Made by a program: the position numbers and the translations under genes. A stretch of 64,000 nucleotides of DNA from Aquila chrysaetos chrysaetos (taxonomy: Eukaryota > Chordata > Aves > Accipitriformes > Accipitridae): NCBI RefSeq assembly GCF_900496995.4, contig NW_024470402.1:1-64000 (forward strand), in the 5' to 3' direction. Below the pieces are notes generated by a model, which was given only the letters and a program-made list of their open reading frames with translations, was not told the DNA's origin and searched no databases. Below, piece by piece: positions 43,001 through 63,891 of this stretch. Each line of letters starts with the position of its first letter. Positions within the stretch are counted from its first letter, which is position 1.

Positions 43001-44298
43001 ATGCACCTCGGGTATCTCATCCTCGCTGCTTTCCTGAGGCAACCACTAGGTAAGCACTGCTTTGACCGAGGCTTGATTCCTCTTCCCCCCAGGAGACCCT
43101 CACCCCCTCAACAGTTCTCTGCAGGGAGCTGCTCGTGAATTATGGGCAAATGTTGGGGAACATCAGATCACACGGGTGGTTTTGCACCTGCTTTCTCAAG
43201 ATGCAGTTACCGATGGAAAAGAAAAATGGGACCAAGAAGAAGCCTCTCCTCTCCCGATCATCTTAGACCCCTGCCCTTCCTTTTCTCTTGCCAACCATCC
43301 ACCTCTCTCTGCCTCTCTCTGCTGATCTGCCTGGGCCCAGCGTTTCACAGACATATGACTGCAGAAGCTCTTTTCTATCTCAGCAGTACCTATTTTCTGA
43401 GGCACAGGACTTTTGAAAGATGATGCAGGGACATGAAAGCTCTCTCATCCCACTCTCATTCTTAGGGTGTCCCAGCATCTCTCCTGGCTGGCACATGTCA
43501 TGCAGCATGCCCTGGCTATCCATTCCTCCTGTGTGATTGCAATGCCAGGGCTTCCTTTTCCCTCCCCTCCCTTAACCTTGGAGCCTTTTGAGAGCACAGG
43601 GAATGGGGGAGCAGGATGAAACTTCTCACAGGAGGTCCCGGGTCCCTCACCCTGCTGGAGGTGTCCTGCAGCCAGCACAGCAAGGCCAGGCACTACAGGC
43701 TCTTCCCTGGAGCCTCCAGGCAGTAGGAGGAGAGTGAGGATGGAAGACCTGGGTGAAAGCACAGCTCTCTCAGGGGGTATCCCTGTGGGAGGTTATTGGC
43801 ATTACAGTGCTATGGGATCGACGCTGAGCTGAGGTCTCAGACCTCCTGCCCAAAGACACTCACCACCTTGCTGTTCCCACCCATGGGGGTCTTGCTGCAG
43901 AGCAAGACACGGGGAACCTTCTCCTCTGGCACTTTGCATCCCCTCTTGTTTTGCATCTTGGAGCCTTTCCCTGCACAGCTGCTGACCCTTGCTTTCTTCC
44001 AGGCACCATGGGGCAGACCACCGTCACCCAGCAAGAAGGACAAGTCACAGTCAAGGAGAGAGGCACCTTCCAAACAACCTGCACGTACCAGACTTCTGGC
44101 TTTAATAGATTGCTCTGGTACCAGCAGAGGAAAGGCCAAGGTCCACAGCTTATCTCATATCAGGCAGCAGCTGGCCCCAGGCGGAAGTGGGCCGTCTCAC
44201 CACGTTGCTGAACACACCGGGGAAGAACAGCCTTCTCCGGCTGGAGGAGAAGTCCGAGGTCTCTGACGCTGCCGTTGTACCCTCTGTGCTGTGCAGGA
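43001..44298 (+). CDS. TCR V gene A2 (ends CAVQ), frame broken as read
   Basis: Two-exon TCR alpha-type V gene. The leader exon 43001-43049 encodes MHLGYLILAAFLRQPL and is spliced in phase 1 at GTAAGC. The V exon 44003-44298 follows TTCTTCCAG. It starts GTMGQTTVTQQEGQVTVKER, has the first Cys in TTCTYQ, a CDR1 of TSGFNR, and LLWYQQRKGQGPQLISYQAA. From framework 3 onward it carries several one-base insertions relative to block B (for example GCGGAAGTGGGCC against GCGGAGTGGCC), so the reading stops early as assembled. The nucleotides still encode a normal framework 3 and a Y-x-C-A-V ending in the other copy. Consensus error and true pseudogene are both possible. The leader, splice sites and RSS are intact. 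Confidence 0.78.
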
Positions 44299-44337
44299 CA
44301 CCCTGGTGCAGGAAGCTTCCTTGGCTGTGCAACAAGC
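44299..44337 (+). other. 23-spacer RSS of V gene A2
   Basis: Heptamer CACCCTG (5 of 7, CAC start kept), a 23-base spacer and nonamer GCAACAAGC (6 of 9). It is identical to the RSS at 63892 in block B. Confidence 0.72.
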
Positions 44338-45751
44338 CAGGGGAGAGAGGGCATTGGTTTGTGTGAGGCTGAGCTTTGGGGGAAGGGGGCCCTCAGCTCT
44401 CCCCTGGCTTGTTGCTTGCCCTGTACACCCAGAGCTCTGCAGGTCAAAAATCCTCTTCCAGGAGAGGACAGTGTCAGTGGCCTCGAGAGGAAGAAGAGGT
44501 GGTGAACGAGTCTCAGGTTCCCTCGTTTTCACCGTGGGTTACTGCAGGGTGATTCTGCCCATGGCTTTGGAGAAGTGTATGGGCAATGTAGCTGAGGGGT
44601 TGGGACCCGCTTGTGCATGCTTCCCTGCTGCTCTTAACTTTCTGGTTTTGTCTCTACTGCACGTTGCTTCTTCAGGTATTCCTGCAAACCTGTTCCTTAG
44701 AGTACCTGCTGCCGGATGTGTCCCTCAGAGGTCAGAGTTGAAAGTAAGAGCAAAAATGTAAATAACATGCCACAGGAACAACGCTCCTTCCAGGAATTAC
44801 TGATTACACAACAATTTTGGAAAAATACTCAGACTACTCTGTGGCTCCTCCCGTTGCTGCATGCCTACGTGCTGTGATCCAGAGGACCTGCTGTCCCGCA
44901 GTGCACTCTGCCGGTCCTTGGAGGCCTCCTCATGCCCTGCCTCGCTGGGCTTTCCCCAGCCCTGCCTCATTTCTTTGCAGTGGGACCCAGGCTGTACAAA
45001 ACTCTGTACAAGAGCACAGTGGGGGGAAGAGACCGCCAGGCAGAGGTGGCTGCAACAGGCCCTGCCAGGAGAAGAGCCAGCTTTGAGGAAAGCTGCTTTC
45101 ATGCTTGGCAGAAGGCCAGGCACCACAGAGCAGCAATGGGGGCTTGGGCACTGGCTGCTGTCCTTGGCTCCCTGTCTGGTGGGAGCTGGGGCTGTGTGAG
45201 AAGCATGAGGACACCTGGGTGTGGCCTGGCCAGGCTGATTTCAACATCAGCCTGTGAGTCACCTTAGCCCTGCACAGCTTGTAACTGCGGGGCTGTGCAG
45301 GCACTGTTTCGGGGCGGTGGAGGGTGTGTAGGTAGAATTCCCTTCTGCAACAGGTTTGTCAGCTGTTGCACCTCTCAGAGCCCTCCAGCACCACCCGGGC
45401 TCCTCACTGGGGGATAGCAGTGGTTGGGCTCCCCATCTTCGCAGGACCTGCTCTGAGGCCAAGGGGCCATACCTGAGCAGAGATGCCAGAATGCAGGGCC
45501 TGATCTCCCACTGGCTGTGGAGGAGCTGAGGTATGTCCTTCCTCAGCTTCAAGAGGCAAGTGACTGCAAGGGACCATTGCCCTGGTCTCCCCACCCACCA
45601 ACCCTATCCTCTGGACATGATGAAAGTTTCACTTGCGTCCTCACCCTTCTCCCCGCCACAACCAAAGGCAATGCCTTTCGTCCTTGGCACCATGAGACAA
45701 TGTCCACCAAGAAAAGGATTACGTGGAGGCAGAGGCTGTGATGCGGAAAAC
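44338..45751. other. Spacer between V gene A2 and keratin gene 2
   Basis: No gene recognised. The first about 110 bases match the end of block B at the window edge. The part near 45490-45600 (CACTGGCTGTGGAGGAGCTG, CTCAGCTTCAAGAGGCA) matches the keratin 3' flanks at 52795-52860 and 26395, so it belongs to the keratin duplication. Confidence 0.5.
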
Positions 45752-61815: not shown

Positions 61816-62600
61816 GGTAAGAGTAAAAATAGTGTGGCTACAAGGATTTGTTAAAGGCTACAAGGAAGGAGAGGTCAAATGCAGATCCTACTTGTTTTGA
61901 GGAAACCGAGAATGGAAGGGTTATGATCAAGTGAAGGGACTGTTTATTTGCATTTGAGTGGGGTTTTTTTTTCCCCCAACAAGCTTTTCAGCAGCTGATT
62001 TCTGAGATTTATGAGATGAGATGGGCAGTGTGGCTAGAAACGTCATTTATTGGTTCCTGAGATATCTTCTCCTGAATAGAGCGAGAAAGTCCACAGTGCC
62101 TGGAGGGGCTGAGTGGGACAGTTGGTGTCTGCAGGGTGTGGGGTTGTTGACCATTGTGTTTGTGATTGCTGCAGCCTTGGGGTGTGCTGAGAGGAGCTTG
62201 GGGCACCATACAGGAGCCAGGAGAGGCCAACTCAACCACGGTCTTGAGGCTGGTGAAACAGGAGGCACGAGGCATCAAGGAGAGAGAGACTCCCAAGATG
62301 TTGCACAGGAGGATGTGTCAGCGAGCTTGGTCACCAGGTGCGTGTCTATCCCCCTTTGAACCCCTCACCTTGGAAAAGCAAAGGTGTTGTCTGCAGGAGC
62401 AACACGTGTCACTGCTGGAGGAGGGAGGACCACAGCATGGGCAATTCAAGCGTGCTAAGGAGAAGCATTTTGTCTTGCCTGTTTCATTCTTTGTTGCCCT
62501 TGCTGAGTCATTTCCGGCAGCTGTGCTCTCTCAGGGCTCTTGGTGGGGACGTGTGGCTTTTTTGAGTCTCTCTCACACATGCAGGAGGATTGGTCTCAGC

Positions 62601-63891
62601 ATGCACCTCGGGTATCTCATCCTCGCTGCTTTCCTGAGGCAACCACTAGGTAAGCACTGGCTTTGACCGAAGGCTTGATTCCTCTTCCCCCCAGGAGACC
62701 CTCACCCCCTCAACAGTTCTCTGCAGGGAGCTGCTCTTGAATTATGGGCAAATGTTGGGGAACATCAGATCACACGGGTGGTTTTGCACCTGCTTTCTCA
62801 AGATGCAGTTACCGATGGAAAAGAAAAATGGGACCAAGAAGAAGCCTCTCCTCTCCCGATCATCTTAGACCCCTGCCCTTCCTTTTCTCTTGCCAACCAT
62901 CCACCTCTCTCTGCCTCTCTCTGCTGATCTGCCTGGGCCCAGCGTTTCACAGACATATGACTGCAGAAGCTCTTTTCTATCTCAGCAGTACCTATTTTCT
63001 GAGGCACAGGACTTTTGAAAGATGATGCAGGGACACGAAAGCTCTCTCATCCCACTCTCATTCTTAGGGTGTCCCAGCATCTCTCCTGGCTGGCACATGT
63101 CATGCAGCATGCCCTGGCTATCCATTCCTCCTGTGTGATTGCAATGCCAGGGCTTCCTTTTCCCTCCCCTCCCTTAACCTTGGAGCCTTTTGAGAGCACA
63201 GGGAATGGGGGAGCAGGATGAAACTTCTCACAGGAGGTCCCGGGTCCCTCACCCTGCTGGAGGTGTCCTGCAGCCAGCACAGGAAGGCCAGGCACTACAG
63301 GCTCTTCCCTGGCCTCCAGGCAGTAGGAGGAGAGTGAGGATGGAAGACCTGGGTGAAAGCACAGCTCTCTCGGGGGTATCCCTGTGGGAGGTTATTGGCA
63401 TTACAGTGCTATGGGATCCACGCTGAGCTGAGGTCTCAGACCTCCTGCCCAAAGACACTCACCACCTTGCTGTTCCCACCCCATGGGGTCTTGCTGCAGA
63501 GCAAGACACGGGGAACCTTCTCCTCTGGCACTTTGCATCCCCTCTTGTTTTGCATCTTGGAGCCTTTCCCTGCACAGCTGCTGACCCTTGCTTTCTTCCA
63601 GGCACCATGGGGGCAGACCACCGTCACCCAGCAAGAAGGACAAGTCACAGTCAAGGAGAGAGGCACCTTCCAGACCACCTGCACCTACCAGGTCACTAAC
63701 TTCTATGGATTGCTCTGGTACCAGCAGAGGAAAGGCCAAGGTCCACAGCTTATCTCATATCAGGCAGCAGCTGGCCCCAGGCGGAGTGGCCGTCTCACCA
63801 CGTTGCTGAACACCACGGGGAAGAACAGCCTTCTCCGGCTGGAGGAAGTCGAGGTCTCTGACGCTGCCTTGTACCTCTGTGCTGTGCAAGA
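62601..63891 (+). CDS. TCR V gene B2 (ends CAVQ), nearly intact
   Basis: Leader exon 62601-62649 (MHLGYLILAAFLRQPL, donor GTAAGC in phase 1), an intron of about 950 bp and V exon 63602-63891 after TTCTTCCAG. From QTTVTQQEGQVTVKER onward the exon is open to the RSS: first Cys in TTCTYQ, CDR1 VTNFYG, LLWYQQRKGQGPQLISYQ, then SGRLTTLLNTTGKNSLLRLE and DAALYLCAVQ. The single problem is one extra G near the exon start (ATGGGGGCAG against ATGGGGCAG in block A), which would throw the leader out of frame. With the intact leader, splice sites and RSS, a consensus error in that G run is the simplest explanation and the gene is probably functional. It is a TCR alpha-type V by its C-A-V-Q ending, though delta use cannot be excluded. 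Confidence 0.85.

Follow-up and report, generated by a model that had tools for sequence, protein, structure and literature searches.

The question raised by this locus is how V genes that are nearly identical elsewhere come to carry different versions of one antigen-contact loop. The window, i.e. the whole stretch of 64,000 nucleotides analysed, corresponds to bases 1–64000 of the Aquila chrysaetos chrysaetos contig NW_024470402.1 (C110; 98,209 bases) in a 1.23-Gb genome of 144 contigs, and is, as judged from its sequence, part of the V-gene array of the bird T-cell receptor (TCR) alpha locus (TRA). Two V genes, A2 and B2, lie here in homologous blocks (A and B) on two sequence contigs (contigs 1 and 2) that make up C110, and a third copy is present on the 46.9-Mb contig C8. 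The three probably represent a single TRAV2-type gene in nearly identical copies or alleles, with two exons (leader and V exon, as in A2 and B2); the C8 and B2 copies have the features TVTQQ and CTYQ...LLWYQQ...LYLCAV, in which the conserved C, WYQQ and YLC are present. The first complementarity-determining region (CDR1) of A2 was found to depart from those of B2 and C8 as a sharply limited block of substitutions, which we attribute, with a probability of about 0.57, to short-tract exchange among V copies or haplotypes combined with selection. The features concerned are the following:

43001–43049, + strand: A2 leader exon (MHLGYLILAAFLRQPLG...), with a splice donor GT at 43050
44003–44298, + strand: A2 V exon, TRAV2-type (chicken naming), CAVQ end, with frame-shifting insertions after about 44180
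44092–44109, + strand: A2 CDR1 (TSGFNR), with 9 of 18 bases unlike both B2 and C8
44299–44337, + strand: putative A2 recombination signal sequence (RSS), with heptamer CACCCTG, 23-base spacer and nonamer-like GCAACAAGC
62601–62649, + strand: B2 leader exon
63602–63891, + strand: B2 V exon, TRAV2-type, with one extra G in a G run near the exon start
63692–63709, + strand: B2 CDR1 (VTNFYG), identical to that of the C8 copy

The limits of both V exons agree with those of a first-pass annotation of the sequence, as do its counts of about 12 substitutions in about 40 bases and nine in 18: A2 and B2 differ by 12 substitutions within 44073–44107, nine of which fall inside CDR1. CDR1 differs at 9/18 bases, against 3/150 for the other bases of the indel-free alignment, which covers the first 168 bases of coding sequence (Fisher p = 3.9e-08); when the A-B differences were shuffled 300 times, no 18-base window rose above 6. 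The block has sharp limits and unchanged near flanks, with no differences in the 71 bases after CDR1 and 3 in the 89 before it; upstream of the V exon (43000–44002), 7 differences were counted in 1,000 aligned bases, and the RSS is the same in A, B and C8. The heptamer of this putative signal has two mismatches to the consensus. Since VTNFYG is identical in B2 and C8, A2 is the odd one. Within CDR1, seven changes are replacements and two are silent, and the three changes in framework 1 are all silent; the earlier statement that almost all changes alter the protein is therefore too strong, as 7 of the 12 do so and 5 are silent. Taken as a whole, the observation made in that annotation is partly confirmed.

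The proposal that this antigen-contact loop has diversified is supported both by the rest of the locus and by related bird proteins. C110 was compared with C8 by blastn alignment (contig 1, 52,548 sites, 0.82%; contig 2, 42,303 sites, 1.43%) in 18-base windows, and the highest cluster of each contig falls in a V-gene CDR. In contig 1 the top window is the CDR1 at 44092 (9 differences), followed by four windows at 6. In contig 2 it is the window at 85450, in the CDR2 region of a TRAV3-type gene (10/18, no gaps nearby), followed by the window at 53951 in the V gene B1 (6, with gaps nearby). The two TRAV3-type alleles involved, C110:85296–85613 and C8:6659259–6659576, have CDR1 in common and differ at 10/18 bases in the CDR2 region, and the C8 allele carries the CDR2 of the other TRAV3-type locus.

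When the C8 copy was used as a query, 304 protein matches were returned, 120 of which were analysed. Those named among the matches listed are from birds, the best named being two TVA12 proteins of Haliaeetus albicilla (94% and 92%), with Buteo japonicus also high; many are named TVA11/TVA12 or TCR alpha variable and others only immunoglobulin-like domain proteins. The CDR1 pattern was matched in 115 of the 120, always with 6 residues and in 91 distinct versions, and mean entropy was 1.92 for CDR1, 1.17 for CDR2 and 0.43–0.69 for the frameworks. In 55 within-species pairs, which came from 24 groups hand-picked among the 120 names (one group sharing only a source label) and which are not independent and may include alleles, CDR1 differed at 175/330 positions (53%) and CDR2 at 95/550, against 181/1,246 in framework 1, 122/935 in framework 2 and 54/1,760 in framework 3 (frameworks, 3–15%); CDR1 differed more than the frameworks in 53 of the 55. 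Among PDB entries, the best or nearly best matches of A2 and of the C8 copy are human alpha chains of the mucosal-associated invariant T (MAIT) type, several of them named TRAV1-2; the best match of the C8 copy is presumably TRAV1-1.

We propose that the CDR1 loop was exchanged or rebuilt as a short block, with the upstream framework, intron, flank and RSS left nearly unchanged. The mechanism would be a germline exchange of short tracts, resembling gene conversion, between V copies or old haplotypes, and the resulting loops would be kept by selection for different contacts with major histocompatibility complex (MHC) molecules and peptides. This explanation is favoured because the cluster has sharp limits and because a like cluster exists in another V gene; the conversion step, the selection and the use of these genes by T cells are inferred. 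For gene conversion, which the first-pass annotation had suggested, the sharp limits and, indirectly, a four-gamete test speak in favour, and the donor searches described below speak against. In seven aligned TRAV1-type copies (B1 left out) with 9 informative sites, all four combinations were present in 20 of the 36 site pairs, some of them lying wholly outside CDR1 (alignment columns 31 and 53). It may tentatively be suggested that CDR1 and CDR2 behave as germline cassettes, tracts of a single loop moving between V copies and haplotypes so that, in alleles of one V gene, the same framework comes to carry wholly different loops.

The points that limit the observation or weigh against short-tract exchange concern i) the background of differences between the blocks, ii) the quality of the A2 sequence, and iii) the source of the A2 loop. 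As to the first, the earlier description of flanks, RSS and framework as nearly the same holds for the RSS, the upstream region and the first part of the exon, but not for the exon end (44181–44298), where A2 has insertions and 8/111 aligned bases differ between A and B. Likewise, CDR1 stands far above the remainder of the exon and above the shuffles, as had been claimed, but further windows with at least 8 differences occur in the MAFFT alignment, at 33842, 34012, 34322, 44825, 45576 and 47639. By edit distance, CDR1 holds at 11–12, the window at 33842 falls to 3–4, and those at 44825, 45576 and 47639 drop from 12–14 column differences to 6–8; these four clusters, with values of only 3–8, were set aside. 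The cluster at 34322 (15–16) was set aside as a C-rich repeat despite its edit distance, and that at 34012, in B1, stays at 17. Around CDR2 (34012–34029), B1 differs from A1 and C8 at 12/18 bases, which is the strongest three-way cluster, but it lies at a contig edge and contains indels. In the comparison of contig 2 with C8, eight windows have 5 differences, of which the one at 96030 is in a TRAV1-type CDR1 and seven are not placed in V-gene loops.

As to the second, the stretch that holds A2 is poorly polished, and A2 as written has a frame shift downstream of CDR1. In the three-way alignment, 109 of the 218 gap events are insertions private to A, dense at about 35.3–36.3 kb and 44–52 kb, and further clusters private to A in this stretch look partly like errors, as would be expected if the CDR1 difference were a plain sequencing error. 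TSGFNR, moreover, is within the range of the bird CDR1 profile but low in it, at the 6.7th percentile of the 120 relatives. Even so, an error of this kind is very improbable, because the difference consists of nine substitutions with no indel, in a neighbourhood where insertions make up many of the errors, because the loop fits the bird profile, and because, when nine substitutions were placed at random in the B/C loop, only 1,036 of 200,000 variants scored as well on that profile. In addition, CTYQTSGFNRLLWYQQ resembles CTYQTSGFNGLFWYQQ of the best PDB match, TSGFYG is found in two of the bird relatives listed, and the like cluster at C110:85450 lies outside the low-quality stretch.

As to the third, a search for a donor elsewhere in the locus, as the first-pass annotation had proposed, found none in the assembled genome, in which the locus is incomplete. 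With up to 3 mismatches allowed, a 33-mer of the A2 CDR1 matched only itself in the genome assembly, and a 24-mer matched, apart from its own position, a single C17 site (3 mismatches), which does not exceed the yield of the backward control; the corresponding 24-mer of the B2/C8 loop matched B2 and C8 and, with 3 mismatches, one site on C9. An 83-base DNA search returned only A2, B2, C8 and a 77% relative on C117, and a protein search gave, besides A2, B2, C8 and TRAV3-type genes, only two C117 relatives with stop codons. These TRAV2-type relatives (C117:61595–61867 and C117:18709–18945) were rejected as donors, as neither CDR1 matches either loop. The TRAV1-type gene at C110:95936 has the residues QTSGF in common with A2 but in different codons, and was rejected as a nucleotide donor. 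Contig 2 is collinear with C8 6627805–6672163, with small breaks, up to where C8 enters a run of N that is unbroken across the 34,837 bases fetched; beyond these, 11 further 100-base samples up to 6777100 were all N, and the sample at 6797001 was sequence. The missing part of the locus may contain the donor of the A2 CDR1, and C117, a separate 74-kb scaffold, may belong in this gap.

Repeated point changes in CDR1 under selection, accumulating separately in allelic or paralogous lineages and with no conversion involved, could also produce this pattern. They carry some weight because no donor was found and because variability across the family follows single residues, CDR1 positions 1, 3, 5 and 6 being the most variable and 2 and 4 more conserved, as residue-wise selection predicts. 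The distribution of changes, with seven replacements against two silent in CDR1 and none against three in the remainder of the A-B comparison, also agrees with this, and the four-gamete result concerns TRAV1-type genes, has 5 of its 9 sites in or beside CDR1 and can be produced by recurrent mutation. Nevertheless, we consider this course unlikely: 9/18 changes followed by 0/71, with 7/1,000 before the exon, would require many selected hits in a short time, and two of the nine CDR1 changes are silent. Short-tract exchange with selection is preferred over a purely mutational origin; the annotation's interpretation, which named diversifying selection or gene conversion after duplication, is partly supported.

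The last element of that interpretation, divergence "after duplication", depends on how the blocks are arranged:

33841–53250, + strand: block A, the terminal part of contig 1; it has homology to block B and, at one site only (from 6627805), to C8
53292–53791, no strand: 500-N scaffold gap between blocks A and B, i.e. between contigs 1 and 2 of C110
53792–64000, + strand: block B, the start of contig 2, running past the window on C110

Tandem order of A and B is not established, because block B begins at the first base after the gap and C8, with a single match to the A2 region, has the block once; no gap-free junction joins the two. A2 and B2 may thus not adjoin on one chromosome. A and B may instead be overlapping allelic contigs placed in series, i.e. 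a false duplication, perhaps with an A2 consensus into which reads from a different V copy were mixed, in which case the loop would be real DNA that may belong elsewhere. Such a misplacement, which is compatible with the other explanations, is conceivable though somewhat doubtful. It agrees with the position of the gap exactly between the blocks, with the many A-private insertions, and with the collinearity of contig 1 with C8, small breaks apart, up to 41 bases short of the contig end, where it also overlaps contig 2; according to PMC9516828, gaps between duplicated pairs are a mark of false duplications. The blocks flanking 53292–53791 overlap nearly end to end, so that gene counts across the gap may be inflated.

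A simple false duplication of two haplotypes allows at most two lineages, whereas three were found. In the clean stretch 36300–43700 (7,052 ungapped columns of the A/B/C8 alignment), private substitutions number 34 in A, 48 in B and 53 in C8, with transitions exceeding transversions in each. They are intermixed and somewhat clustered, with 66 runs against 82 expected (36300–43990), a value reached by 0.3% of shuffles, a pattern that is hard to obtain from two haplotypes. The difference between contig 1 and C8 rises from 153/30,884 clean sites (0.5%) before 32.5 kb to 218/18,228 (1.2%) after it (summed counts), as for a multi-copy array, and the CDR1 cluster is free of indels amid many insertion errors. 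As A, B and C8 differ from one another as three separate sequences, the simplest reading is probably that the animal has more than two copies. In the flank, divergence from C8 is otherwise about 0.3%, with islands of 1.5–2% at 5000–7500 and 22500–25000; the former contains a TRAV3-type gene.

Further V genes of the window are the following:

6678–6995, + strand: V gene of TRAV3 type (LQFP motif); the related gene at C110:85296 departs from the C8 allele chiefly in the CDR2 region
33863–34158, + strand: A1, the block A V gene of TRAV1 type, with the QVQQ motif; its reading frame is shifted as written
53814–54098, + strand: B1, V gene of TRAV1 type at the contig 2 edge, unlike A1 and C8 in the regions of CDR1 and CDR2, where it has indels

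A leader-and-intron-like relic, about 67% like the A2 leader region, is present at 38547–39062. Of the V exon suspected downstream of it, near 39–40 kb, none was seen, only the leader-like relic.

If loops move as blocks, T-cell repertoires of birds could differ between individuals by loop and not by gene count alone, and this would, if true, matter for disease resistance and for co-evolution with the MHC, a link proposed for chicken V-beta-1 in PMC10055752. V-gene counts and "duplications" in such loci hinge on scaffold gaps and polishing. Our literature search found no paper on this loop pattern in raptor TRAV, and the likenesses that follow are to other systems.

The eagle TRAV2-type gene resembles human TRAV1-1/TRAV1-2 (MAIT V-alpha 7.2), the best PDB matches carrying CTYQTSGFNGLFWYQQ and CTYQTSGFYGLSWYQQ, a likeness that would reflect sequence kinship alone. 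With the false heterotype duplications of bird assemblies outlined in PMC9516828, the locus shares a duplicated pair on one scaffold with a gap between, but it has three distinct sequences, and a pure two-allele case does not explain everything. According to PMC10972964, chicken TRA has 48 TRAV1, 23 TRAV2 and 1 TRAV3 genes, with TRAV1-TRAV2 pairs repeating as homology units, whose duplication in bird TRA is also described in PMC5278385. The chicken motifs QVQQ, VSQQ and LQYP reported in the former resemble QVQQ, VTQQ and LQFP of the eagle genes, by which A1 and B1 are assigned to the TRAV1 type, A2 and B2 to the TRAV2 type and the gene at 6678 to the TRAV3 type, although VTQQ is not exactly the VSQQ of chicken TRAV2. 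In the eagle, by contrast, few copies are assembled, and C8 is interrupted by a long run of N. In chicken V-beta-1, as presented in PMC10055752, CDR1 is a hotspot of germline variants, and motifs and copy number vary between inbred lines. In both cases, a bird TCR locus holds several V copies of a single family in the germline, with a CDR1 hotspot; they differ in that the chicken case concerns the beta chain and rests on RNA sequencing and comparison of lines, and the eagle case concerns the alpha chain and one individual, studied by genome sequence alone. The CDR1 divergence described here is probably a well-marked example of this known germline diversification of V genes.

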